Assembly: GCF_030064125.1 (NCBI RefSeq)
Contig: NZ_CP125957.1
Span: 5,636,501 to 5,700,500 of the forward strand
Length of the DNA: 64,000 bases
DNA from: Pseudomonas sp. G2-4
GTDB taxonomy: Bacteria; Pseudomonadota; Gammaproteobacteria; Pseudomonadales; Pseudomonadaceae
Reading direction: 5' to 3'
Under the pieces are notes generated by a model. That model did not search any database. It saw nothing but the letters and a program-made list of their open reading frames with translations, and had not been told where the DNA came from. Each line of letters opens with the position of its first letter. The stretch's first letter is position 1. Positions 3,086-43,054 of the stretch are shown one piece after another. The position numbers were made by a program, and so were the translations under genes.

Positions 3086-3089
3086 ATGA
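2994..3089 (+). other. Possible 31-codon leader ORF coupled to tpsB
   Basis: ATG at 2994 opens a 31-codon frame (MPTDSSGDMDSGPPE...) whose TGA at 3087-3089 overlaps the tpsB ATG at 3086 as ATGA. The nearest strong ribosome site, AAGGAG at 2974-2979, is 14 bases from this ATG, which is longer than optimal. Translational coupling into tpsB is an inference. It may be only chance, since tpsB has its own AAGGGA at 3072-3077. Confidence 0.25.
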
Positions 3090-4777
3090 CCCGCTTTGGT
3101 ACTACGCACATTTTGGCTTCTTGTGCGCTTTTTACATCCCTGGCTCATGCCGCTCCCCTCCAGACTCCCGGCGACCGCGATCTGATTCGTGATCGCCAGC
3201 AGCAATTGCTGCAAGAGCAACAAAAACGCCTCGACGAACTCCAGCAACTGCCCGGCAAGACATTGCCCGCGCCTGAGCCGGCCAAACCCGACGACAGTCG
3301 CTGCTTCGACATCAAGACCATCGAACTCGAGGGCGCGCCCCACCTCGACGCTGGCACGCGAGAGCAATTGCTCAGGCCCTACCAGAACCAATGCCTGTCG
3401 GTCGTGCAGATCAACACGCTGCTCAAGGCCGTGACCCATCATTACCTTGAACGCGGCTTCGTCACCACGCGCGCTTATCTGCCACAGCAGGATCTGTCGG
3501 GCGGAGTGCTGAAAATCGTGGTAGTCGAAGGGCGTCTTGAAGGCTTCGACAGCTCCGCCCTGGCCAGCCCCCGCGAGTTGACGATGACGTTTCCCGGCGA
3601 GACTGGCGAGCTGCTGAACCTGCGGGAACTGGAGCAACTGGTGGACCAACTCAGTCGCTTGCCGTCCCGCCAGGCCCAGCTTGAACTGACGCCAGGCGAG
3701 CAGGTCGGCGGCAGCCGCATCGGCTTCAAGGGCGAGCGGGAAAAACCCTGGCGCGTCTCGGCGATGCGCAGCAATGACGGCGACCGCAGCACGGGCCAAC
3801 AACAGATGGGCCTGGGGTTGGACTGGGACAGCCCGCTGGGCCTCGCCGACCAATTGAGCCTGCGCACCAACCAGGACGCCGTCAGCGACCACTGGCGCCA
3901 CTCCGACAACCAAAGCCTGTACTACAGCGTGCCCTACGGCTGGTGGACGTTCAACTATGCCTACAGCCAGAGTTTCTACCGCGCCCGCAACGACGCCCAA
4001 GGCTTTACATTCGGCTATGACGGCACCAGCAAGAACCATGCGCTTCGCGCCGAGCGCGTGCTGCATCGCGACAACATCAGCAAGACCGGCATCAGTTTCG
4101 GCCTCAGCCAGCTGCGCACGCGCAACTACATTGATGAAAATTTCATCGACACCTCCAGCGTGACCATCACCGAGACCCAACTGAACGTCAACCATGGCCG
4201 GCGCATCGGTTCGGCGTTCATCAACCTGGATGCCGGTTGGCAACAGGGGATTGGGGCGCTGGATGCCCAGCGGGACAGCCCTCATAGCGGACCGCAGTCG
4301 CGCTACAACAAATACAGCCTGACCCTGAGCTACTTGCAGCCGTTCCGGCTGTGGGGTGAAAGCTTCAGCTTCGACAGCCTTGCCACAGGGCAGCGCAGCG
4401 AAGATGAACTCTACAGTCCGCAACGAATCAGCCTGGGCGGTGTCAGTTCGGTACGAGGCCTGCAAGACCAGACGTTGACCGGGGACAGCGGCGGTTACTG
4501 GCGTAACCAGTTGCGCTGGCGTCGGGCAGTGACCTGGGAACCCCTGCTGCCCCTCTTGCAAGAGTACGGCGTGGCGTTCGCCTACGACGTCGGGGTCATC
4601 GAGGGCAGGTCCTCGAACCCTGATGAGCGCGGCCGCGTCAGCGGCAATGCCCTGGAGTTCAATGCCAGGGGCAAGAACCTCGCTACTTCCGTGAGCTTTG
4701 CCCGCTCACTGGAACGCCCGGGGATTATCGAAAAACGTGAACGCCCGGTGTATTTCCGCGTCGATCTGTTTTTCTGA
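3086..4777 (+). CDS. Two-partner secretion outer-membrane transporter, TpsB/ShlB/CdiB family
   Basis: 563 residues from ATG 3086 (AAGGGA seven bases upstream). Signal peptide about residues 1-22 (SLAHAA). A charged Gln-rich helix (about 28-55) corresponds to the plug helix of FhaC, then two POTRA domains (about 70-225; the first begins CFDIKTIELEGAPHL and contains GFVTTRAYLPQQDLSGG). The rest is a 16-strand beta-barrel with the Omp85-superfamily motif SVRGL (R457) in the L6 loop region and a C-terminal aromatic strand ending FRVDLFF. Length is normal for FhaC/ShlB. It should thread the adjacent TpsA protein across the outer membrane. It is first in the operon, 34 bp before tpsA, the same order as cdiB-cdiA. 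Confidence 0.95.
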   Translation: MTRFGTTHILASCALFTSLAHAAPLQTPGDRDLIRDRQQQLLQEQQKRLDELQQLPGKTLPAPEPAKPDDSRCFDIKTIELEGAPHLDAGTREQLLRPYQNQCLSVVQINTLLKAVTHHYLERGFVTTRAYLPQQDLSGGVLKIVVVEGRLEGFDSSALASPRELTMTFPGETGELLNLRELEQLVDQLSRLPSRQAQLELTPGEQVGGSRIGFKGEREKPWRVSAMRSNDGDRSTGQQQMGLGLDWDSPLGLADQLSLRTNQDAVSDHWRHSDNQSLYYSVPYGWWTFNYAYSQSFYRARNDAQGFTFGYDGTSKNHALRAERVLHRDNISKTGISFGLSQLRTRNYIDENFIDTSSVTITETQLNVNHGRRIGSAFINLDAGWQQGIGALDAQRDSPHSGPQSRYNKYSLTLSYLQPFRLWGESFSFDSLATGQRSEDELYSPQRISLGGVSSVRGLQDQTLTGDSGGYWRNQLRWRRAVTWEPLLPLLQEYGVAFAYDVGVIEGRSSNPDERGRVSGNALEFNARGKNLATSVSFARSLERPGIIEKRERPVYFRVDLFF

Positions 4778-4811
4778 CACCGAATCGCTTTTGTACTTGG
4801 AAGACTCGCAC

Positions 4812-7800
4812 ATGGACGTCCGTACCCCGCTGTCTCAATGCATTGCCCTGTCGTTGGCCTCTATTGTGCTCCTCAATCCCATTGTCGCCGCGGCGGCGGG
4901 CCTTGCAGTGGACGCGGCGGCAGGTGGCAAAACGACCATTGGCGCGGCGGGCAATGGCGTACCGGTGATCAACATCAACGGCACCAATGGCAGCGGGCTG
5001 TCCCACAACAAGTTCGTCGACTACAACGTCGGCAAAAATGGCGTGATTCTCAACAACGCGACCGGCAAGACGCAGAACACCCAACTGGGCGGAATCATCG
5101 TCGGCAACAGCAACCTCAAGGGCCAGGCCGCGCAAGTCATCCTCAACGAAATCACCAGCGGCAATCGCAGCCAAATGGCCGGCTACACCGAAGTAGCCGG
5201 GCAAGCGGCGCGCGTCATCGTCGCCAACCCCAACGGCATTACCTGCAGCGGTTGCGGTTTTATCAATACGCCCCGCGCCACCCTGACCACCGGTAAACCG
5301 GTCATGGAAGGCCAGCGTCTGGACCGCTTCCAGGTCGACGGTGGCGACATCAGCATCGAAGGCGCAGGCCTGGACGCCAGCGATGTCGACCAGTTCGACC
5401 TGATTACCCGCAGCGCCAAGCTCAACGCCAACATCTATGCAAAAAACCTCAACGTGGTGACCGGCCGCAACGACGTCAACGCCAACACGCTGAGCGCCAC
5501 CGCCCGCACCGACGACGGTAGCGAAAAACCGGAGCTGGCCATTGATAGCTCGGCCTTGGGCGGCATGTACGCTGGGGCGATTCGGCTGGTAGGCACCGAA
5601 CAGGGCGTGGGTGTACGCCTGGCTGGCGACATGGCCGCCACCGTAGGAGACATCCAGATCGATGCCGGTGGCAAGGTCAGCATGGCCAACGCCAGCGCCA
5701 ACCAAGCCATCGCGGTCAGCGGGCAAAGCCTCGACCTCCAGGGCAAGGTCTATGCCGGCACCCAGGTCAAGGTGAACGCCCGGGGTGATGTGACGGTGGG
5801 CAAGAGCGTTGCCGCTCGCGACAAAGTCAGCATCACCAGCGCCGGCAAAGTCACCAACAGTGGCATCGTCGAAGCCGGGGTGAACCCGAATAACACTCGC
5901 AACCAGAGCGGCGACGTCGTCGTCACCGCCCAGAAACTGAGCAACACCGGCAACGTCATCGCCAGCCGCACCCTTGAAGTGGGTGCCCGTGAGTTGATCG
6001 ACAATCAGAACGGCATTATCCAGGGCACCAACGTCAGCCTGACCAGCGCTCGCCTGGTCAACCAGGGCACCACGGCACGAGTGCTGGGTACAAGTGCGCT
6101 GTCGCTGGTGACTCCGGCCATCGTCAACCTCGGCGGTCTGATCCGTTTCGGCGACGGCCAGTCCACCACCCTGAACCTGGACAGCCTGGACAACACCGAC
6201 GGCCATCTTGAACTGGCCGGCGGCAGCCTCGAACTCAACGCCAAGCAACTGACCAACCTGCGCGGCTCGGTGATCGCCGATCAATTGCAAGTGACTGCCC
6301 AACGCCTGGACAACCAGCGCGGTCTGATCGCTTCCAGCGTCGGCCAATCCATCATCCAGATCAGCGACCAACTCGACAACACCGACGGCGTACTGCAAGC
6401 ACAGAGCCTGTTGGATATCAGCGCTGACCAGGTGTTGAACCAGGGCGGCAAACTCGTCGCCGATCACCTGAAACTGACCGCCGAGCGTCTGAATAACAGC
6501 GCCAATGGCCTGATCAGCGCCGAGTTGGGCAACAACGAATTGACCGTCACCCAAGACCTGAACAACCAGGGTGGTCGGATCCAGGCAACCTCCGCGTTGA
6601 CGCTCAAGACCGGGAGCACGGACAACACGGGCGGCGTCCTGGTGGCCCAGCAACTGAGCCTTGTCAGCCAAGGGGCCTTGAACAACCAGCAAGGCAAAAT
6701 CAGCGCCGACCACCTGACCGTTTCCGCCCAGGACGTGGACAACACCGAAGGCCTGCTGCAAGGCACCGGTGTCGCCACCCTGACCGCGCGCGACCTGAAC
6801 AACCTCAAGGGCAACGTCAACGGCGGCCAGCTCACCGCTGACTTGGGCAGCCTCAGCCAGAACGCTCAAGGTGTCCTCAGCGCCGAAACCGGCAAGCTGA
6901 CGATGGTCGTGGCCCGGCAACTGAACAACAGTGCCGGCCACCTGCAATCCAAGGCCGGCAACCTCGACATCACCGCGGCCGACTTGAACAATCAACAAGG
7001 CGTGGTCGTCGGCAAGCAACTGCTGTTGACTCAAAGCGGCTTGCTGGATAACCGCGGCGGCCGCGTGGTGGGCGATCAGTTGACCCTCGTCGCCGGGCGC
7101 ATCGATAACAGCACCAACGGTTTGCTGCTGGCCGGTACCGGCGGTGCGCTGCTGACCCTGAAGGATCAAGGCTTGACGCCTGGGCAGTTGCTCAACACTC
7201 AGGGGCGCGTGCAGAGCGACGGCCATTTGCAGGTCGACGGTAGCGAGATCGAGAACCACGGCGGCGTGCTGCTGGGCAGCAGCGTCGGGGTCAACACCAC
7301 CCGTCTGGATAACAGCGCCCAGGGCTCGATGATAGCCACCGGCGGGGCCATCGGGCTGGCGGTTTCGGGCGTATTGAACAATGCCTTGGGCCTGATCGAT
7401 GGCGGTGATGCGTCGGTGCTTGTGACCCAGGCGACCCGGATCGATAACCAGGGCGGCACGCTCACCGGCAAGCGCCTGGACATCCAAGGCACGGTTGTGG
7501 ACAACCGCAAGGGCCAATTGTTGTCTGGCGTCGATGGTTTGAAAATAACCGCGACCAGCGTGGACAACAGCGCCGGCCTGATACTGGCGCAGGCGGGTCA
7601 CGCTGACTTGCAACTCAATCAGGGCGCGCTGGACAACCAGGGCGGAGCCTTGCAAGGCAGCAGCGTCGAAGTCGTCGCCGCCTCTGCGAACAACAACGCA
7701 CTGGAAGGCAAGGCCGGACTCATCAACGCCCAGGCCGGCGACCTGAAACTGCTGATCGATAACCTGACCAACCAGGCGGGTCGTCTCTATGCCCAAGGCC

Positions 7801-10800
7801 TGCTGAGCAGCCAGGGCCAGACCCTGGACAACCGCGCTGGCGGTGAGATCAGTGCCAGGACCTTGAGCCTCAACGCGCTCAATACCTATAACCAGACCGG
7901 CCTGATCGAATCCGGCGGCAACCTGCTGCTGACTGGCGGGAATCTTCATAACAGTGCTGGCCGCATCCGTGCCCTGGGTGGCGATCTCAGCCAGATCCTG
8001 CTCACAGGTGCCCTGGACAACCAGAGCGGCTCCATCGGCATCACCAGCCAAGCCGTCACCCTCAAGGCCGGGGCGCTGAACAACCTCGCCGGCAGCCTCG
8101 AACACGCCGGGACAGGCCTGCTCGATATTGACCTCACCAGCCTGACCGGCAACCAAGGCAGCATCACGAGTCTGGGCAGCGGGGATGTGGACATTGGCTC
8201 GATCGACGGCACCGGGCGCCTGCAACTCAACGGCGCACTGGATCTGACCGTAGGCGGCGACGTCAACCTGCTGGCCGGTGACCGCATTGCCAGCGCCGGC
8301 GGCCTGAGCCTGAGCGCAGCCACCCTGAACAACAGCGGTGAAGTGCTCAGTGACGGCGATCTGGGCCTGGTGCTCAGTGGTGACCTGAACAACAACGGCC
8401 TGCTGTCGGCAGCCAAGGCCGTCAGCATCTCGGCGGGCAACCTGACTCAAAATAACGGACGCATCGCCAGCGGCGGCAATACCACGCTCGCCCTGCGCGG
8501 CAACCTGGACAATCTGGGGCGACTGATCGCCAATCAGAACCTCAATATCCACGCCACCCAAGTCACCAACCGCGGCACCCTCGGTGCCATGGGCCAGCTG
8601 GATATCTTCGCGGGCAACGGCATCAGCACCTCGGCCAATACCCTGGTCTACAGCGGGGGCGACATGAATCTGCGCGGCGCCACCCTGAGCAACCACTACG
8701 GTGACATCTACAGCAAGGGCAACCTGAGCTTTGCCGGCCTTAACGACACTCAGGCACAAAGCCTGAGCAACCGCTCGGCGAACATCGAAAGCGAGGGCGA
8801 CATGAACCTCAATGTCGCCAGCCTGGAAAACACCAAGGATGAGTTCGAAATCGGCGAATCCCTGGTCAGCCGCCGCATCGACATCAACTGCACCGACTGC
8901 TCCGGCAAGCACCACACCGCGACCTTTATCGTCAACAGCACCTACCTGGGTAAAATCATCAAGGATTCTCCGGGTGCACGCCTGATTGCCGGGCGTGACC
9001 TGCTGATCAATGCCGGCACCGTGGAAAACAAGCAAAGCCTGATCGCCGCCAACCGCGATGCGTTCGTCAACGCCACTAACTTCTACAACCGCGGCGCGAC
9101 CCTCGACCAACGCGTTGAAAGCACCACTTACTTCCTGCACGGTGTGAAGCAGGGCGACTTCCGTTGGGCAGAATCCAATGCCAATGCCTGGAACGCGGCC
9201 AACGCCGGCAGCGCTCCGGATCAGCAGCAACCGATTCCGACAGCAATCACCCAATATCCGCTCATCGGCCAGAGCAGCGTTGTACAGAACGGCACCCAAA
9301 CCGGTTCCGCCTCAACCTTGCAGTCGGGTCGTCAGTTGAACCTCATCGTCACCGGTAATCTTGAAAACGGCACGTTGACTCAACAGGCCCAAGCTCAGTT
9401 GACCGGCCAGAGCCTGACCAATACCGTTGGCCTGGTCGGTGGCCAGACCATCACCGTCAATGCCTTGGGCAGCGGTGGCAGCACCCAGGTGGCGGCGGAT
9501 GTACGTCGCGTCGAACGTGTCACGGCCGATGGCAGCACCCAAGTGAGCTTTGCACCCGTGGACTTTGCCGGCGTGCCTTTTGTCGCCGTCGATCCCACCG
9601 CACTCGGCACTTATCGCCTGCCGGAAGGTGACTACGGCCTGTTCGTGCGCAGCCAGAACCCCGACAGCCGCTACCTGATCGAGACCAACCCGAACCTGAC
9701 CAACCTCTCGCGATTCCTGAGTTCCGACTACATGTTGGGCCAGTTGGGCTACAACGACGACCGGAGCTGGCGTCGCCTGGGTGACGGCCTGTACGAAACC
9801 CGCCTGATTCGCGAAGCGGTGCTGGCCCAGACCGGCCAGCGCTTCCTTGCCGCCAGCCTGACCAGTGACTACGACCAATATCAGTACCTGATGGACAATG
9901 CCATCACCTCCAAAGACTCGTTGCAACTGAGCGTCGGCGTGGCGCTGACCTCACAGCAAGTGGCTGCGTTGACCCATGACATCGTCTGGATGGAAACCCG
10001 CCGGGTACAGGACCAGGACGTTCTGGTGCCGGTGCTCTATCTGGCCCAGGCCGAGTCGCGCAACCTGCGCGGCGGCAGCCTGGTGCAAGCCCGGGATATC
10101 AACCTGATGGCCGGCAACGACCTGACCAACGTCGGCACCCTGCGAGCCAGCAACAACCTGACGGCCGAAGCGGGGAACAGTCTCTACCAGGGTGGCCTGG
10201 CGCAAGCCAGCGAGCGGGTAAGCCTGATGGCCCAGAACAGCATCCGCAACGCACTGGGTGGCGAAGTACGCGGCCATCAGGTCGACCTTAACGCTGTCAA
10301 AGGCGATATCGTCAACGAGCGCGCCGCCATGGAAGTACTTTATGGCTCCGGCTCGCGGACCAACCTGGACCAGGGCAGCCTGATCAGTGCCCGTCAGCAA
10401 TTGAATGTCAGTGCCGGACGCGACCTGACCAACAAAGGCCAGATCCACAGCGACGGCAATGCCAGTCTCAGCGCCGGTCGCGACGTGGACATGCTCGCGG
10501 TACAAGATCACACCTTTACCCAACACGCGATCCGTCGTGGCCTGGTGACCAATGACACAGTGAAGACCCTGGGCTCGAGCGTCACCACGGGCGGCGACCT
10601 GAAAGTGAACGCCGGTCGCGACATGGCTATCGTGGCGAGTCAGGTCAAGGCCGGTCATGACCTGGCCCTCAACGCCGGCAATGACATGGCCATTGTCTCA
10701 GGCCAGGATGAGCAGTCCTCGACCTTCATCCAGAAGAAAAAAGGCTCCTGGGGCAAAAGCAAAACCACCCAGAGCGCGGACTCGGCGACCACCAACGTGG

Positions 10801-13800
10801 CTTCGCAGATCGAAGCCGGGCATGACCTGACCGTCAACATCACCCAGGACAAGGACGGCCGCATCGGCCTCAATGGCGGCCGCGACGTGACCGTCGTCGG
10901 CAGCCAGCTCAAGGCCGGTAACGACTTGCTGGTCGGCGGTGCCGGCGACGTGAACCTGATGTCGGCGCAAGAGCAGACCGACAGCAGCTACAGCGTGAAG
11001 AAAAAGGGCAGTTTCGGCCTGAGTAAAAGCGGTAGCAGTAGCAGCTCCAGCAGCATCACCCAGGTGGGCAGCGAGCTGAGCGCCGGTAACGATGCAGTGG
11101 TGGTCGCGGGCGGTAACGTCAACGTGTCCGCCAGCCGTATCGACGCCAAGCGCGATGCCGAGTTGCGCGCCGGGATGATCGACAAGAACGGCGACGTCAA
11201 CCTGATGGACGCGGCCAACGAGTCCACCAGCCACAGCGAGAAATACAAAAGCAAAGTCGGCTTCAGTACCTCCGGCAACTTCATCTCCATCGCCTCGGCG
11301 AAAAAGTCCGGGCAGGAAAACCTCCAGACCCAAAGCGTCGGCAGCCAGGTCACTGGCGGGCGCGATGTCACCGTGCAAAGTATCCGCGATGTGAACATGA
11401 TCGGCAGCAGCGCCGAGGCCGGACGTAATCTGCAAGTGGGCGCCGGACGCGACGTCAACGTGTTGGCCGGTGCCAACAGCCAGGACCAGAGCAACTGGAA
11501 ATCCCAGAAGCAGAGCGGCCTGTCCCTGGAAAGCGACCGCAACGGTTTCACCGCGTTTGCCGGGCGCGAAGCGACCAAGACAAAGTCCCGCGACGCACAG
11601 CAGACTACCGCCGGCAGCCAATTGGTGGCCGGGCAGGACGTCACTGTCAAGGCTGGACGCGACCTGACCCTCGAAGGTGCGGGGCTGGACGCCGGACGCG
11701 ATATCAGCCTGCAAGCCTCCCGCGACATCAATGTCGATGCCGTCGATGAAACCTTCATCCAGGAGCGCAGCAAGACCCGCGACCGCAACGGCCTGACCGT
11801 CAACATCAGCCACAACTATGGCAACACCATGGATGCCATCAACGGCACCGGCAAGGGTGAAGACAACGTCAGCAAGGCCTCCAGCGTGCTCAGCACCGTG
11901 GACGCCATCAACTCCTTCACCTCCGGGCCAACCAGCGCCACCCACTTTGGCTCGGCCAGCCAGGGCACCAGCTCACGTTCGCAGATCCGTGAGAACGTTC
12001 CATCCACCCTGAGCGCGGGGCGTGACATCAACGCAGTGGCGGGTAACGACCTCAATGTTCGTGGCAGTCAGTTCGAGGCTGGACGCGACATCACCCTGGT
12101 GGGCAAGAACGTCAACCTGGACGTGGCCCGTGGCACGATCGATCAGGAAAGCCAGACGACCCGCAGCCAGGGCGGCATCAATGGCCAGAGCGGCGGCGGC
12201 AGTGCCCGCGCAGGGATCGGCGGCAGCAATGGCGTGGCCAGCGAAGAATTGACCCAGGGCACCAACACGCCAAGCGTGCTGCTCTCCGGGCGTGACACCA
12301 ACATCGAGGCCTCCGAGAACCTGACCATGATCGGGACCCAAGTGATTGCCGGCAAGGACATCGATTTGCGTGCCGGCAAGGACCTGACCATCCGCGCCGC
12401 ACAGAACGACTCCGACAGCGAATCCACTCGACGCAGCGGTGGTGGAGAAGTCGGCATCGCCCTGGGCGGCAAGGATTTCATCGCTGTCTATGCCAGCGTC
12501 GACATGGGCAAGGGCAAGCTGGAGCGGGAAACCGAGAAACAGCAGACCGCCTACCTGTACGCGGGCAACCAGCTGCGCTTCAACAGCGGCAACGACACCA
12601 CCATCGCCGGCGCCAACCTGCGCGCCGACGAAGTGGTTGGCCGCGTGGGCGGCGACCTGCTGGTATCGTCGGTGCCAGACACCGGCAAAGTCAGCGGCAA
12701 ACAGCTGGATGCCAGTGTCACCGTGAGCATCGGCCTGGCCGGCGGCGGAGGCGTCAGCGGTTCGCTGGGTGTGGGCAAGACCACCGGCAAGACCAACTGG
12801 GTCGAGCAACAAACCAGCATCACCGGTAAAAACGGCGTGGATATCCGCACCGAGAAACACACCCAGATCGACGGCGCGCTGATCGCCGCCGACAACGGCA
12901 AGCTCAAGCTCGACACCAACACCCTGGGCTTCCGTGACATCAATGGCGTGGACAAGGAGCACAGCTACTACGTCAACGTGGGTGGCGCCTTTGGTTGGGG
13001 TGCGGATGCTGGCAACGGCGCCCAGGCCACCGGCGGCAAGGACGTGGCCTTCACCAGTGACAAGAGCCTGAGCGGCGCGCCCAAGGAAGGTTTCAACGGC
13101 TGGAGTGTGAGCGGCTACGACTACCGCAAGGAGCGCGAACAGGATGTGCGCGCCACAGTCGGCGCCGGCAACATCATCGTGCGCAACGATGCGGTCACCG
13201 GACAAGACTCCACCGGCGGGCTCAACCGAGATCCATCCAAGGCTTACGACATCACCAGAGACAAGGAAAAGCGCACCGACCTGTACATCAGCGAGTCGTC
13301 GCTCAACTCGGTGGGCAGCCCGATGCAGACCTTGGACAGATGGAAAAAAGGTCTTCAGGACTATGGCAAGAACAGTTCCGATATATTCAAAAAATACGGT
13401 GAATTGACCGGGGCTACTGAGAAAGCGCTCGAAGAAAACCCTGGTCTCGCACCCCTGGCCTGGATTCCTGGCGTGATGCAAGCCGCCATGGACAAAACAT
13501 CCTATGGCACTCTGGGGCTGATGCCGGGCGTGATCAGTCACGGTGGCGTGGCGACGCAGTTGCCGGTGCTGCTCAGCGGTGACATGAGCTTCTACCGCAC
13601 TACAGTGGTTTACCAGAAAGATACCAGCGGCAAGGTGATCATGGACCCGGAAACCGGAAAACCGCTGCTGGATCTGAAAGCCACCCAATTCGACATGATC
13701 GTGCGTCCCGATGCGCCAGGGGTCGTTGCCATCAATGGCATCCAGAACTCATTACAGGCGGCTGCGGTAAATGGCAGCATGCAAGGTGGCCAGGACAGCT

Positions 13801-14456
13801 TCATGCAAGGCTATAACCCGGAACACGGTTTTCTGGGTGACCTAGTAGAGTCCTTATGGGACGTGGCCTTGGGTAGCGTCAAGCGATCCGGCAACGCGCA
13901 GCAGGTGAGTGAGTTCTACCAGGCGGGAGTTGACCAGGGGTTCAAGCTGGACCTGGTGGGGCATAGTCAGGGCGCGTTGATAACCTATCGAGGACTTGAT
14001 GGGGTGTCATTTGGCAACAGTGCAGGTGGCATTCAACTGTCTGGCGCCCCGGTGTACGCGCAACACTTCTTCGACGCCGCCCAAGAGGCAGGCTTCAATA
14101 CCGACAGCAACAACGCGGTTTTCCAGGTCAACCGCCCGGACAGCCAAGTGTTCTTTGGCATGTTGCCCATGACCGACACGGTGTCCGATTTGTTGGGGCA
14201 CAATGCCCTTAACTCCAGCGACCCGATCAGCCGGTACCTGGGCGCCCTGTTCACAGGCCCTGGCCTCATGGGTAAAGACAGCCCGCACTCCAATTACTTG
14301 TGCCAGGTGAAATCCATGTGCCAGACAGGCACCAACCAAGTGCAACAGGACTTCAAGAACGGCACGACGACCAACAAGGACGGGACAACGAAAAAGACTT
14401 ACATCGTGCCAACCTTTATCGACAAGAGCGGTAACGCCTTCGGCGCCTCGCTTTGA
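4812..14456 (+). CDS. Giant TpsA/CdiA-like filamentous haemagglutinin with serine-hydrolase-like C-terminal tip
   Basis: 3214 residues from ATG 4812 (GGAAG eight bases upstream). Order of parts: signal peptide (about 1-36); TPS secretion domain with NSNLKG (99-104) and NPNGI (139-143) followed by a Cys pair CSGC (145-148); long FHA-1 region of about 20-residue repeats rich in LDN and GxLxA; second Cys pair C1360/C1363; an aromatic Y/P-type segment (about 1430-1750: YRLPEGDYGLF, YLIETNP, FLSSDYMLGQLGY) resembling the receptor-binding region of CdiA; FHA-2 repeats with AGRDVNV units and a serine run; and a tip from about 2805. The tip contains GHSQG (S3052), TDTVSDLLGHN (D3122) and SPHSNY (H3159), fitting an alpha/beta-hydrolase triad. 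No VENN pretoxin motif was found. Base composition falls toward AT in the tip. It is probably a contact-delivered antibacterial effector, but it could be an adhesin with an enzymatic tip. Confidence 0.9.
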   Translation: MDVRTPLSQCIALSLASIVLLNPIVAAAAGLAVDAAAGGKTTIGAAGNGVPVININGTNGSGLSHNKFVDYNVGKNGVILNNATGKTQNTQLGGIIVGNSNLKGQAAQVILNEITSGNRSQMAGYTEVAGQAARVIVANPNGITCSGCGFINTPRATLTTGKPVMEGQRLDRFQVDGGDISIEGAGLDASDVDQFDLITRSAKLNANIYAKNLNVVTGRNDVNANTLSATARTDDGSEKPELAIDSSALGGMYAGAIRLVGTEQGVGVRLAGDMAATVGDIQIDAGGKVSMANASANQAIAVSGQSLDLQGKVYAGTQVKVNARGDVTVGKSVAARDKVSITSAGKVTNSGIVEAGVNPNNTRNQSGDVVVTAQKLSNTGNVIASRTLEVGARELIDNQNGIIQGTNVSLTSARLVNQGTTARVLGTSALSLVTPAIVNLGGLIRFGDGQSTTLNLDSLDNTDGHLELAGGSLELNAKQLTNLRGSVIADQLQVTAQRLDNQRGLIASSVGQSIIQISDQLDNTDGVLQAQSLLDISADQVLNQGGKLVADHLKLTAERLNNSANGLISAELGNNELTVTQDLNNQGGRIQATSALTLKTGSTDNTGGVLVAQQLSLVSQGALNNQQGKISADHLTVSAQDVDNTEGLLQGTGVATLTARDLNNLKGNVNGGQLTADLGSLSQNAQGVLSAETGKLTMVVARQLNNSAGHLQSKAGNLDITAADLNNQQGVVVGKQLLLTQSGLLDNRGGRVVGDQLTLVAGRIDNSTNGLLLAGTGGALLTLKDQGLTPGQLLNTQGRVQSDGHLQVDGSEIENHGGVLLGSSVGVNTTRLDNSAQGSMIATGGAIGLAVSGVLNNALGLIDGGDASVLVTQATRIDNQGGTLTGKRLDIQGTVVDNRKGQLLSGVDGLKITATSVDNSAGLILAQAGHADLQLNQGALDNQGGALQGSSVEVVAASANNNALEGKAGLINAQAGDLKLLIDNLTNQAGRLYAQGLLSSQGQTLDNRAGGEISARTLSLNALNTYNQTGLIESGGNLLLTGGNLHNSAGRIRALGGDLSQILLTGALDNQSGSIGITSQAVTLKAGALNNLAGSLEHAGTGLLDIDLTSLTGNQGSITSLGSGDVDIGSIDGTGRLQLNGALDLTVGGDVNLLAGDRIASAGGLSLSAATLNNSGEVLSDGDLGLVLSGDLNNNGLLSAAKAVSISAGNLTQNNGRIASGGNTTLALRGNLDNLGRLIANQNLNIHATQVTNRGTLGAMGQLDIFAGNGISTSANTLVYSGGDMNLRGATLSNHYGDIYSKGNLSFAGLNDTQAQSLSNRSANIESEGDMNLNVASLENTKDEFEIGESLVSRRIDINCTDCSGKHHTATFIVNSTYLGKIIKDSPGARLIAGRDLLINAGTVENKQSLIAANRDAFVNATNFYNRGATLDQRVESTTYFLHGVKQGDFRWAESNANAWNAANAGSAPDQQQPIPTAITQYPLIGQSSVVQNGTQTGSASTLQSGRQLNLIVTGNLENGTLTQQAQAQLTGQSLTNTVGLVGGQTITVNALGSGGSTQVAADVRRVERVTADGSTQVSFAPVDFAGVPFVAVDPTALGTYRLPEGDYGLFVRSQNPDSRYLIETNPNLTNLSRFLSSDYMLGQLGYNDDRSWRRLGDGLYETRLIREAVLAQTGQRFLAASLTSDYDQYQYLMDNAITSKDSLQLSVGVALTSQQVAALTHDIVWMETRRVQDQDVLVPVLYLAQAESRNLRGGSLVQARDINLMAGNDLTNVGTLRASNNLTAEAGNSLYQGGLAQASERVSLMAQNSIRNALGGEVRGHQVDLNAVKGDIVNERAAMEVLYGSGSRTNLDQGSLISARQQLNVSAGRDLTNKGQIHSDGNASLSAGRDVDMLAVQDHTFTQHAIRRGLVTNDTVKTLGSSVTTGGDLKVNAGRDMAIVASQVKAGHDLALNAGNDMAIVSGQDEQSSTFIQKKKGSWGKSKTTQSADSATTNVASQIEAGHDLTVNITQDKDGRIGLNGGRDVTVVGSQLKAGNDLLVGGAGDVNLMSAQEQTDSSYSVKKKGSFGLSKSGSSSSSSSITQVGSELSAGNDAVVVAGGNVNVSASRIDAKRDAELRAGMIDKNGDVNLMDAANESTSHSEKYKSKVGFSTSGNFISIASAKKSGQENLQTQSVGSQVTGGRDVTVQSIRDVNMIGSSAEAGRNLQVGAGRDVNVLAGANSQDQSNWKSQKQSGLSLESDRNGFTAFAGREATKTKSRDAQQTTAGSQLVAGQDVTVKAGRDLTLEGAGLDAGRDISLQASRDINVDAVDETFIQERSKTRDRNGLTVNISHNYGNTMDAINGTGKGEDNVSKASSVLSTVDAINSFTSGPTSATHFGSASQGTSSRSQIRENVPSTLSAGRDINAVAGNDLNVRGSQFEAGRDITLVGKNVNLDVARGTIDQESQTTRSQGGINGQSGGGSARAGIGGSNGVASEELTQGTNTPSVLLSGRDTNIEASENLTMIGTQVIAGKDIDLRAGKDLTIRAAQNDSDSESTRRSGGGEVGIALGGKDFIAVYASVDMGKGKLERETEKQQTAYLYAGNQLRFNSGNDTTIAGANLRADEVVGRVGGDLLVSSVPDTGKVSGKQLDASVTVSIGLAGGGGVSGSLGVGKTTGKTNWVEQQTSITGKNGVDIRTEKHTQIDGALIAADNGKLKLDTNTLGFRDINGVDKEHSYYVNVGGAFGWGADAGNGAQATGGKDVAFTSDKSLSGAPKEGFNGWSVSGYDYRKEREQDVRATVGAGNIIVRNDAVTGQDSTGGLNRDPSKAYDITRDKEKRTDLYISESSLNSVGSPMQTLDRWKKGLQDYGKNSSDIFKKYGELTGATEKALEENPGLAPLAWIPGVMQAAMDKTSYGTLGLMPGVISHGGVATQLPVLLSGDMSFYRTTVVYQKDTSGKVIMDPETGKPLLDLKATQFDMIVRPDAPGVVAINGIQNSLQAAAVNGSMQGGQDSFMQGYNPEHGFLGDLVESLWDVALGSVKRSGNAQQVSEFYQAGVDQGFKLDLVGHSQGALITYRGLDGVSFGNSAGGIQLSGAPVYAQHFFDAAQEAGFNTDSNNAVFQVNRPDSQVFFGMLPMTDTVSDLLGHNALNSSDPISRYLGALFTGPGLMGKDSPHSNYLCQVKSMCQTGTNQVQQDFKNGTTTNKDGTTKKTYIVPTFIDKSGNAFGASL

Positions 14457-15259
14457 GGCCAGGGCTACTTGTCCTGATGCTATTGCCCGTGGCCCTGTGG
14501 GGCTGCGGGCGCGCACCTCTGGTACATGAAGATGGTGAGCGGCTGAGCCGGATGCTGTGCGAAGTGGGGGAACAACGGGTGACCCTGAGCCCACGCTTCT
14601 CCTACGACTTGCCAGGGCCATTGCGGCGCACGCCGTGCGGCACGATCAAAAGCGGCTTCAACTATGACAAGGTGCGCGACATTCAGTCGGCGAGTGCTGC
14701 CGGCGGCTTTCGCTCCGATGACCTCGTCGTACTGGCCTCATCGCGCTGGATAACCGTCGAAAGTCTGCTTGATGGCAAGGACGAAGGGACGCTCTATTCT
14801 CCCGAGCAGTTCCTGCAAAACAAACTCGCCCTGATGGACCTCACCCCGAGCAAGGCGCGCCCCGAAAGAATCGATTGGGTCACCCGACAAGGCCTGCAAT
14901 GCCTGCGTTTCTACGACATATGGCACAGCCCGACGGATGCTTGGGAAGAGGACGTCACCTACTGGTGCTGGGAAAGTCAGAGCGGCTTGAAACAACCGTT
15001 CTCGGTCAGCGCCGGTCAACGCTTACCCGAAGGCACCAAAGGCTACGACCTGGAGCAGGCCTTCATACTGCCCTTCTTCCGGAGCCTGAAAATCAATCGT
15101 CTGTCCGACGCCGCCCTGGCCGAGGCCGACGCAAAGATCAAAGCCGCCTGCGCCCACGTCAAATCCCGCTATGACCAGCACCTGAACTGGGGGGCCGACT
15201 ACCCGGACAAACGCCTGACCCGCCAACGCTTGCGCTCCTGCGGTTACGCCGCGCCCTAG
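14453..15259 (+). CDS. Putative lipoprotein, candidate immunity protein for the CdiA-like tip
   Basis: 268 residues starting at TTG 14453, which overlaps the tpsA stop as TTGA, so translation is probably coupled; no separate ribosome site is visible. Residues 1-17 form a signal peptide with lipobox LWGC and lipidated Cys18. Six further cysteines (C36 and those in TPCGT, LQCLR, YWCWE, AACAH and RSCGY) suit a disulphide-bonded periplasmic domain. I recognise no named family. Position directly after the exoprotein gene matches a cdiI slot, and an envelope location is where an immunity protein against a lipid- or wall-targeting hydrolase would act. Those last points are inference; it could instead modify or anchor the exoprotein. 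An alternative ATG exists at 14477 but lacks the positive n-region. Confidence 0.8.
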   Translation: MRPGLLVLMLLPVALWGCGRAPLVHEDGERLSRMLCEVGEQRVTLSPRFSYDLPGPLRRTPCGTIKSGFNYDKVRDIQSASAAGGFRSDDLVVLASSRWITVESLLDGKDEGTLYSPEQFLQNKLALMDLTPSKARPERIDWVTRQGLQCLRFYDIWHSPTDAWEEDVTYWCWESQSGLKQPFSVSAGQRLPEGTKGYDLEQAFILPFFRSLKINRLSDAALAEADAKIKAACAHVKSRYDQHLNWGADYPDKRLTRQRLRSCGYAAP

Positions 15260-15597
15260 TCAAAAGCAGAATCTGCGCCCAATAAAAAAGGGAGACCCGT
15301 CGGCCTCCCCTTGAGAATTTCGTCCGTGCTCGACGCTTTTGACGTCGGCTCACCTCACGCCGTCTTCTGGACAGTGTGCAGCTCGGGGGTCTGCCAGCAC
15401 CGGTGGGTGCCGCGACCGCAGCCGTCCTGATTGGGCGGGCTGCACTGGACTGTTTGTCCGAGCAGTGATCTTGGTGATAAGGATAAGGGCGGGGCGCCGA
15501 CGGATGATTGCGAAGATTGCGGAAATAAACATCACTTGCGCAATTTTTAACCTCGGATAGATAATCTGCCGCAATTATCAAGATAAAGGCCCGACTG
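15260..15597. other. 338-bp gap between the two-partner locus and the Lrp gene
   Basis: Holds a terminator oriented for leftward transcription (15281-15309) although no leftward gene is obvious. It also contains GC-rich sequence with a weak leftward 60-codon frame (15350-15532, no ribosome site) and, at about 15530-15585, an AT-rich stretch that is the likely lrp-type gene promoter. No REP is present. Confidence 0.5.
15281..15309 (-). terminator. Rho-independent terminator reading leftward
   Basis: GGGAGACC (15290-15297) pairs with GGCCTCCC (15302-15309) with one A-C mismatch and a CGTC loop. On the minus strand the stem is followed by a run of six T (complement of 15284-15289) and then ATT. 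On the plus strand no T-run follows, so it does not look like the terminator of the two-partner operon. Confidence 0.65.
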
Positions 15598-16077
15598 ATG
15601 AGCAAACTCGACCGTTATGACCTGAGCATTCTGGCGGAATTGCAGCGCGATGCACGCATCTCCAACCAGGAGCTGGCCGAACGCATCGGGCTGTCGCCCT
15701 CCCCTTGCTCACGACGGGTCAAGCAATTGGAGGACGACGGCTACATCACTCGTCAGGTTGCCCTGCTCGACCGCAAGATGCTGGGCCTGAGCCTGACCGC
15801 CTACGTGCTGATCGGCATGGACCGTCACACCCCCGAGCGTTTCGAGAACTTCGAAGCGGCCATCCGCAACCTGCCGCAGGTGCTGGAGTGCAGCCTGGTG
15901 ACCGGCATGGACGCGGACTACCAACTCAAGGTCGTGGTGCCGGACATGGACCATTACCAGAAACTGTTGCTCGGTCACCTGACGCGTATTGATGGCGTGA
16001 CCAGCGTGCGTTCGAGCTTTGTGCTGAACCAGGTGCTTAACAGCACCGAGTTGCCGTTGACTCATCTGCGCAGCTGA
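15598..16077 (+). CDS. Lrp/AsnC family transcriptional regulator
   Basis: 159 residues, standard for the family. Residues about 4-65 are the winged helix-turn-helix (LDRYDLSILAELQRDARIS, then IGLSPSPCSRRVKQLE as recognition helix), and about 66-155 the RAM ligand-binding and oligomerisation domain (VLECSLVTGMDADYQLKVVV). Start ATG 15598 has AAAGG nine bases upstream. Members sense amino acids or related metabolites and bind DNA as octamers. The target here is unknown. I recall a PAO1 counterpart at this place (PA3965), so it is probably core rather than part of the secretion locus, but control of the neighbouring operon cannot be excluded. Confidence 0.92.
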   Translation: MSKLDRYDLSILAELQRDARISNQELAERIGLSPSPCSRRVKQLEDDGYITRQVALLDRKMLGLSLTAYVLIGMDRHTPERFENFEAAIRNLPQVLECSLVTGMDADYQLKVVVPDMDHYQKLLLGHLTRIDGVTSVRSSFVLNQVLNSTELPLTHLRS

Positions 16078-18695: not shown

Positions 18696-18787
18696 GATCA
18701 GCTTCCTGTGTTCTGACTTGCAGGCCTTCATCTTGCCTGCATCGCCGCCCGACGGGAACAGTGGCGTAGTCGACTCGATCGATTCCC

Positions 18788-19057
18788 TGTGGGAGCGAGC
18801 CTGCTCGCGTTAGCGAGGTATCAGTCACCACAGATGCTGGATGGGCCGACGCCATCGCGAGCAAGCTCGCTCCCACAAGGGTTCGATGGCGTACTCAGAT
18901 GTGGCGTACAGCTCAGATCCACTGTGGGAGCGAGCTTGCTCGCGATAGCGGGGTGTCAGTCACCACAGATGCTGGATGGGCCGACGCCTTCGCGAGCAAG
19001 CTCGCTCCCACAAGAGTTCGATGGCGTACTCAGATGTGGCGTACAGCTCGCTCCCAC
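18788..19057. repeat. Two tandem REP pairs, family B, on a 135-bp unit
   Basis: TGTGGGAGCGAGC(C/T)TGCTCGCG at 18788 and again at 18923 each face an inverted partner (ending about 18876 and 19011). The 135-bp unit, including the unique spacer between REPs, is repeated nearly exactly, and a third partial REP end lies at about 19045-19057. It fills the gap upstream of amn. Confidence 0.9.
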
Positions 19058-42183: not shown

Positions 42184-42448
42184 ATATCCGTTGCTGCGGT
42201 AACGGCAACTTATGGTTCCGCTCTTACAGCGGCTCACTTTTGAAAAGCGCAAAAGTAAGCAAAACGCTCTTGCCCCACCACTCGGTGCCTCGCCTAGGCT
42301 CGGCATGCCCGAACGAAGGCATTGCTCCGTGGGCCGCCGCGAAGGGCCATCCATGGCCCAGCGCGGCTATCCCGGCATCCATGCCGGGATGCCCACTGCA
42401 CAATGCCTGCGTTCGGCCAGCGTGGTTTAATGGGGCGCCTAGATCAAG
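42184..42448 (+). repeat. Left arm of long inverted repeat
   Basis: Starts ATATCCGTTGCTGCGGTAAC and reaches the AGATCAAG at 42441. It pairs with 42790-43054 at high but imperfect identity. A nested palindrome ATCCCGGCAT/ATGCCGGGAT lies at about 42369-42390. Confidence 0.85.
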
Positions 42449-42789: not shown

Positions 42790-43054
42790 CTTGATCTGGG
42801 GCGCCCCGTTAACCACGATGGCCGAACGCAGGCATTGCGTAGTGGGCATCCCGGCATGGATGCCGGGATAGCCGCGCTGGGCCATGGATGGCCCTTCGCG
42901 GCGGGCCCACGGAGCAATGCCGGAGTGAGGGCACACCGAGCCTAAGCGAGGTGCCGAGTGGTGGGCAAAGCGTTTTTGGTTACTTTTGCGCTCTTCAAAA
43001 GTGACCCGCTGTAAGAGCGGAACCCTAAGCGGCCGTTACCGCAGCAACGGATAT
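42790..43054 (-). repeat. Right arm of long inverted repeat
   Basis: Reverse complement of 42184-42448 with scattered differences; ends CGGATAT at 43054, 23 bp from the lipA stop. Both arms are 265 bp long. Confidence 0.85.

Follow-up and report, generated by a model that had tools for sequence, protein, structure and literature searches.

A 64,000-nucleotide stretch of the soil bacterium Pseudomonas sp. G2-4 (contig NZ_CP125957.1, positions 5,636,501 to 5,700,500; hereafter the window) carries a gene set that likely encodes a contact-dependent growth inhibition (CDI) system delivering a lipase or esterase that acts in the periplasm, with an envelope lipoprotein as the immunity protein. The open reading frames (ORFs) and their translations give the order tpsB, tpsA and lipoprotein gene, all on the + strand. 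The architecture is a known one for CDI, combined with an unusual C-terminal tip on the TpsA exoprotein, which is probably a lipid-cutting enzyme. Most CDI tips described to date are either nucleases acting in the cytosol or toxins that depolarise membranes.

A predicted cutinase-like hydrolase at the tip of TpsA

The AlphaFold2 model of the TpsA tip (predicted local distance difference test score, pLDDT, 83) shows an alpha/beta hydrolase of cutinase-like fold, the hydrolase domain spanning residues 2926-3173 (model residues 126-373; 13587-14330, + strand), and cutinase is the closest fold among the matches listed. The predicted nucleophile, Ser3052 (13965-13967, +), belongs to a GHSQG motif starting at residue 3050 and occupies the nucleophile elbow that joins strand 246-251 to helix 253-261 in the model. 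The predicted acid, Asp3122 (14175-14177, +; in TDTVSDLLGHN, from 3121), and the predicted His3159 (14286-14288, +; in SPHSNY, from 3157) follow in order. Across 35 tips (the window and 34 homologues) H3051, S3052, Q3053, G3054, D3122 and H3159 are invariant, and so are N2975-G2976, Y3001-N3002-P3003, H3005-G3006, D3010 and E3013. An earlier sequence-only reading of this DNA had named the same three residues, in these motifs and this order, as an alpha/beta-hydrolase triad and had proposed structure prediction with a fold search as the check; both the residues and the fold agree with it.

A single tip sequence found only a chance-level match among solved structures, a tip profile placed cutinase 1xzi at an expectation value (E) of 1.3, behind an unrelated chain at 0.3, and scans of the tip against Pfam, NCBIfam and PADLOC gave no family at or above cut-off. 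A lipase of the type VI secretion system (T6SS) does not appear among the 50 fold matches listed, which excludes nothing. The nearest named homologue of the tip is found in P. brassicacearum (95% identical), and P. thivervalensis carries the system with a tip identity of 89%. A tip-profile search restricted to proteins of 0.55-1.75 times the profile length returned 31 short proteins or pieces. Distant hydrolases that are not fused to a TpsA occur at two loci, L064 (341 residues) and L065 (394 residues), and are homologous to the tip by profile comparison (97.9% probability, E 3.5e-13). Behind each lies a gene of 241 or 278 codons (L064 1084-2807; L065 378-2436) whose product has no sequence similarity to the window lipoprotein. 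By eye, from the ORF sequences, L064 lies close to a type I restriction-like gene set.

The motifs suggest that the tip probably belongs to Tox-ABhydrolase-2, a toxin-domain family predicted in 2012. Zhang et al. (2012; PMC3482391) describe its motifs as NG, [DE], [KR], HSxG, D and H, place it in type V secretion system (T5SS) and filamentous toxins with SUKH immunity proteins, and call its target unclear. Compared by motif description, the tip has NG at 2975-2976, D3010, E3013, HSQG, D3122 and H3159, all invariant; no K or R occurs among the tip positions that 33 or more of the 35 sequences share, although [KR] is in the motif list.

A substrate other than lipid, such as another periplasmic ester or thioester, an acylated protein, peptidoglycan acetyl groups or TpsA itself, is possible though doubtful, and would change the proposal in its substrate only. 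The alpha/beta-hydrolase fold covers many activities, and in their account of the family Zhang et al. (PMC3482391) saw no specific relation of Tox-ABhydrolase-2 to lipases. Against this, the closest fold among the matches listed is a lipolytic esterase, cutinase, and the lipoprotein encoded next to the tip has a lipase immunity protein among its own fold matches.

Exchangeable tips behind a common pre-toxin segment

Comparison with other TpsAs delimits a common pre-toxin segment at residues 2741-2865 (13032-13406, +), which contains the motif LYIS (2824-2827) where relatives of TpsA have LYVS or LYVT. Pseudomonas CdiA proteins were sorted by pre-toxin motif by Mercy et al. (PMC4725963), class III being defined by LYVT, and the window system is assigned to this class, as an LYVT-like type, by motif only. 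The VENN motif was sought in the window TpsA and is absent, as had been noted before. The same reading had placed the start of the tip at about residue 2805; this is near the border between pre-toxin segment and tip, but slightly upstream of it and inside the common segment, since LYIS stands at 2824-2827 and the identity shared with TpsAs that carry another tip stops at 2861-2888.

Residues 2780-3214, used as the query (E <= 0.001, 7980 candidates scored), retrieved 41 proteins. Alignment extends through residue 3164 or further in 34, which are 33.9-96% identical to the window protein by BLAST and include one from Desulforhopalus and one from Geothermobacter; across these full-tip homologues tip and stalk diverge roughly in parallel. 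The other seven have only the stalk and pre-toxin part in common with the window, identity stopping at 2861-2888. Four of the seven were scanned against Pfam, whole or in part: one carries Ntox21 (E 9.2e-25, 87.3 bits, cut-off 25), one a GIY-YIG-like piece (21.2 bits, below the cut-off of 22.6), and the remaining two no toxin family. One more of these TpsAs bears an Ntox21 accession in the database's own annotation. The window tip behaves as an exchangeable CDI toxin, because other TpsAs carry the same pre-toxin segment with different tips. Among 398 Pseudomonas genomes the pre-toxin segment is matched in 74 and the hydrolase tip strongly (E < 1e-100) in 13. A sharp GC (guanine plus cytosine) drop at the tip was considered as a sign of recent transfer and set aside, the drop being mild (0.58 vs about 0.62).

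From the end of the segment to the toxin core, the TpsAs with Ntox21 and GIY-YIG-like tips have about 250 residues, compared with about 60-95 in the window TpsA; because of this shorter stretch, the domain for entry into the cytoplasm would be missing from the window protein.

The segment also recurs in other settings. A sister TpsA in the same genome (L075, G000:C1:789000-794000, 2-2287) has LYVT and a different tip, with 50% identity over the segment, and an ORF of 171 codons (2291-2806) lies just behind it. Further on in L075 there is a 357-codon ORF with an internal lipobox-like start. In L076 (G061:C1:1732000-1746000) three copies of the segment occur within 14 kb amid many small open frames, resembling an array of orphan toxin-immunity cassettes.

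The lipoprotein in the immunity slot

The gene behind tpsA (14453-15259, +; start TTG at 14453) encodes a 268-residue lipoprotein, predicted from lipobox, homology and fold to be a CdiI-type immunity protein. TpsA ends in TTTGA, within which the TTG start lies, so that the lipoprotein gene overlaps the TpsA stop by TTGA. The lipobox is LWGC with Cys18 at 14504-14506, and six further cysteines are invariant columns of an alignment of 39 lipoprotein sequences, in agreement with the earlier description of the protein as cysteine-rich. No family in Pfam, NCBIfam or PADLOC is at or above cut-off, and comparison with solved structures by sequence gave no match at E 5. The structural model has a Mog1p/PsbP-like fold, with TplEi/Tli4, a T6SS lipase immunity protein, and Tsi3 among the best fold matches.

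Nineteen loci with relatives of the tip were collected from species genomes, those of two Vibrio and of Sulfurimonas being distant (27-31% identical). L017, where the contig ends within the tip, was left out of the partner count. In all 18 remaining loci the next same-strand ORF of at least 120 codons, the size class covered by the survey whatever shorter frames intervene, starts with a hydrophobic stretch and matches a lax lipobox pattern. In L013 the pattern also matches an earlier cysteine, in L014 the gene reaches the contig end and in L020 it is 1.1 kb away. The four-base overlap with the TpsA stop recurs in 14 of the 18 loci in addition to the window. The partner aligns with the window lipoprotein in 15 of 18 (L013 by profile, 97.6%), and homology was not seen for those of the two Vibrio loci and the one Sulfurimonas locus; a common origin of these partners, or of those of the stand-alone hydrolases, with the window lipoprotein has no sequence support. 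Extra copies of the immunity-type lipoprotein occur in L005 and L009. A second, smaller lipobox-bearing gene (153-175 codons) lies beside extra or orphan copies at L005 12814-13275, L009 11797-12309 and L060 8905-9432.

Co-occurrence and immunity-only sites

In the 398 genomes, searched for tip and lipoprotein with at most five candidates scored in each (all candidates in G388, G353 and G113, which were searched again), the tip is matched in 15 (13 strongly, a fragment in G014 and a weak match in G127) and the lipoprotein likewise in 15. Both are present in 13, which are all the genomes with a strong tip, one of them with a broken lipoprotein gene. The association has a Fisher p of 1e-22, calculated on 13 genomes that overlap with the species of the loci above and uncorrected for kinship. 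A second search, over 95 relatives, matched the tip in seven and the lipoprotein in two, the extra tip matches (G014 and four genomes of the same order) being weak or distant. Around the G014 fragment (L062 9267-9566) no other window protein was matched in the surrounding 13 kb, the lipoprotein included.

Two genomes, G353 and G388, have the lipoprotein only; no tip was found in either with all candidates scored. In G388 (L059) the flanks are 85.8-92.3% identical to the window at the DNA level and the order is a cation-efflux gene, a DUF6515 gene, some 190 bases, the lipoprotein gene and an AsnC-type regulator, the ~190 bases replacing about 11.6 kb with tpsBA; the lipoprotein is 77% identical to that of the window. 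At the G353 site (L060), whose flanks resemble those of L072 (92-94%), tpsBA is absent and the lipoprotein is retained, adjoining the smaller lipobox-bearing gene listed above; another TpsA with the pre-toxin segment is present elsewhere in that genome. Pairwise dN/dS (nonsynonymous to synonymous substitution rates) of the two orphan lipoproteins against partnered copies is 0.12-0.22, values that include the time before loss, with one comparison saturated and another with dS > 1. Such immunity-only sites suggest that the attack comes from neighbouring bacteria.

They also bear on the view that TpsA serves chiefly as an exoenzyme or cytotoxin against hosts (insects, fungi, plants or protozoa), with the lipoprotein guarding only against self-harm. 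TPS (two-partner secretion) proteins of P. protegens CHA0 contribute to insect killing, deletion of tpsA2 having reduced insecticidal activity in one of three feeding experiments (PMC7784888), and the relative at L072 sits at a place compatible with tpsA2, a guess from coordinates only. The Parachlamydia Tox-ABhydrolase-2, which has no immunity partner, might act on hosts (PMC3482391), and a cutinase-like fold could suit plant polyesters. A mainly host-directed role is nevertheless unlikely, given that the pre-toxin segment is common to other, partly nuclease-like tips and is present in a cassette array, and that two sites have the lipoprotein alone.

It is very unlikely that the lipoprotein is instead an accessory factor, that is a chaperone, foldase, tether or secretion aid comparable to BcpO of Burkholderia or the Eag chaperones. 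It is intact at two sites without tpsBA and duplicated beside some loci, lipoproteins with no detectable homology to it are encoded behind the remote tip homologues of Vibrio and Sulfurimonas, and TplEi/Tli4 and Tsi3 are among its best fold matches. Apart from the lipoprotein gene, between tpsA and the downstream AsnC-type gene the only + strand ORF of at least 70 codons is one of 73 (15339-15560), opposite the P24 RNA. The sequence-only reading had put the lipoprotein in the immunity slot, and the gene order, its co-occurrence with the tip, its fold, its retention without tpsBA and its duplications fit that placement. A plain adhesin without a toxin was set aside because of the exchangeable tip.

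An observation that weighs against the lipoprotein as immunity protein comes from G113 (L061, about 5060-5860), where the hydrolase tip is open whereas the lipoprotein gene that follows is broken in frame. This may reflect an error of sequencing, a toxin that does no harm, or a lipoprotein that can be lost.

Proposed mechanism

TpsB/CdiB would export TpsA/CdiA and, on contact, the C-terminal region of TpsA would cross the outer membrane of the target cell, as in other CDI systems. The GHSQG serine-hydrolase tip, with its cutinase-like fold, would probably then cut ester bonds of membrane lipids from the periplasmic side, as a phospholipase A or lipase. The lipoprotein, probably located in the outer membrane and facing the periplasm, would bind the incoming or self-made hydrolase and block it.

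We lean slightly towards a more specific proposal, a CDI branch without cytosol entry in which a lipid hydrolase of cutinase-like fold is freed by CdiA in the periplasm of the target, with an envelope lipoprotein conferring immunity. Lipid anchoring, rather than sequence, would seem to be the conserved need: alongside the distant relatives of the tip in Vibrio and in Sulfurimonas, this slot is taken by lipoproteins with no detectable homology to that of the window. If true, CDI would, in the manner of T6SS and the type VII secretion system (T7SS), also be able to damage lipids while staying outside the cytosol, and uncharacterised Pseudomonas lipoproteins of this family would gain a likely role. 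Two questions would become testable: can CdiA cargo fold and be active in the periplasm when it skips entry through the inner membrane, and how does the producer protect its own periplasm from a tip held there before contact?

Gene layout and neighbouring features

The translations place TpsB, the 3214-residue TpsA and the overlapping lipoprotein gene where the sequence-only reading had them, and its CDI-type architecture is upheld by a POTRA-bearing TpsB, a TPS domain with filamentous haemagglutinin (FHA) repeats, the pre-toxin motif and the exchangeable tip. TpsB, a CdiB-type outer-membrane transporter (3086-4777, +), matches ShlB (PF03865, E 2.4e-88), POTRA_2 (PF08479, 7.2e-27) and POTRA_3 (PF17287, 1.4e-15). 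TpsA (4812-14456, +; ATG at 4812), identified as CdiA-type from its ORF, translation and Pfam domains, has a TPS secretion domain at residues 32-290 (4905-5681, +; PF05860, E 4.3e-51) that matches hemolysin and FHA TPS-domain structures at E 1e-33 to 5.9e-42. Fil_haemagg_2 (PF13332) matches seven stretches, the best at residues 2471-2632 (12222-12707, +; E 2.1e-66). The genome (6.65 Mb, one contig) has five open frames with a TPS domain. Promoter and terminator consensus sequences were searched upstream of tpsB and none was found.

Downstream of the lipoprotein gene an AsnC-type regulator gene lies at 15598, and between the two the Pseudomonas small RNA P24 is matched at 15289-15543 on the - strand (Rfam, 234 bits). 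Short dispersed repeats resembling repetitive extragenic palindromes (REP) at 18782-19013 match several places of L059 on both strands. Two matches to TwoAYGGAY RNA (42303-42422, -; 42844-42908, +) lie on opposite strands with ~420 bases between them.

Comparison with known systems

The sequence-only reading had called this type of system less described, which agrees with the literature searched, although the toxin-domain family was probably predicted already in 2012 (PMC3482391). The words "lipase" and "hydrolase" are absent from the main text of one CDI review (PMC9086364), PMC6555100 names nucleases, deaminases and metallopeptidases as CDI passengers, and lipases appear once in PMC7690452, within a general toxin list. 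A literature search on CDI with lipase and on Tox-ABhydrolase found no CDI lipase in titles and abstract openings, with thin coverage of subscription journals.

Pseudomonas class III (LYVT) CDI systems, e.g., PSF113_0793, have the same cdiB-cdiA-cdiI order, TPS domain and FHA repeats, the likeness being drawn by motif only (PMC4725963). In Table 1 of that study the annotations of the 24 loci include no lipase or alpha/beta-hydrolase tip, though for many loci no C-terminal (CT) domain is annotated, and CdiI proteins are 68-160 residues long, compared with 268 residues and a lipobox in the window. Tox-ABhydrolase-2 resembles the window tip in being an alpha/beta hydrolase in a T5SS/filamentous-haemagglutinin context in proteobacteria; the immunity protein listed for it is SUKH, whereas the window partner is a lipoprotein with no Pfam match and a Mog1p/PsbP-like model. 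Imm65 is the sole lipoprotein immunity protein in the set of Zhang et al. (PMC3482391).

The T6SS pairs Tle4/TplE-Tli4/TplEi and Tle3-Tli3 combine, as proposed for the window, a serine-hydrolase effector that acts in the periplasm with an immunity protein that is a periplasmic or outer-membrane lipoprotein, and the model of the window lipoprotein resembles TplEi/Tli4, whereas the fold of Tli3 differs from it (PMC9860674). These effectors are delivered by T6SS, while the window hydrolase, with a fold nearest to cutinase, forms the C-terminal end of a protein that has a TPS domain and is encoded beside TpsB. TslA-TilA of T7SS pairs an antibacterial phospholipase A with a neutralising immunity lipoprotein, as is proposed for the window system, and this lipoprotein too occurs in extra copies, but TslA-TilA is a Staphylococcus system with an upstream immunity gene of the DUF576 family (PMC10730906). 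A lipoprotein, BcpO, is also encoded in the CDI operon bcpAIOB of Burkholderia, which has A-I-O-B order and a separate BcpI gene, whereas in the window the order is B-A-lipoprotein and the lipoprotein itself takes the immunity slot.
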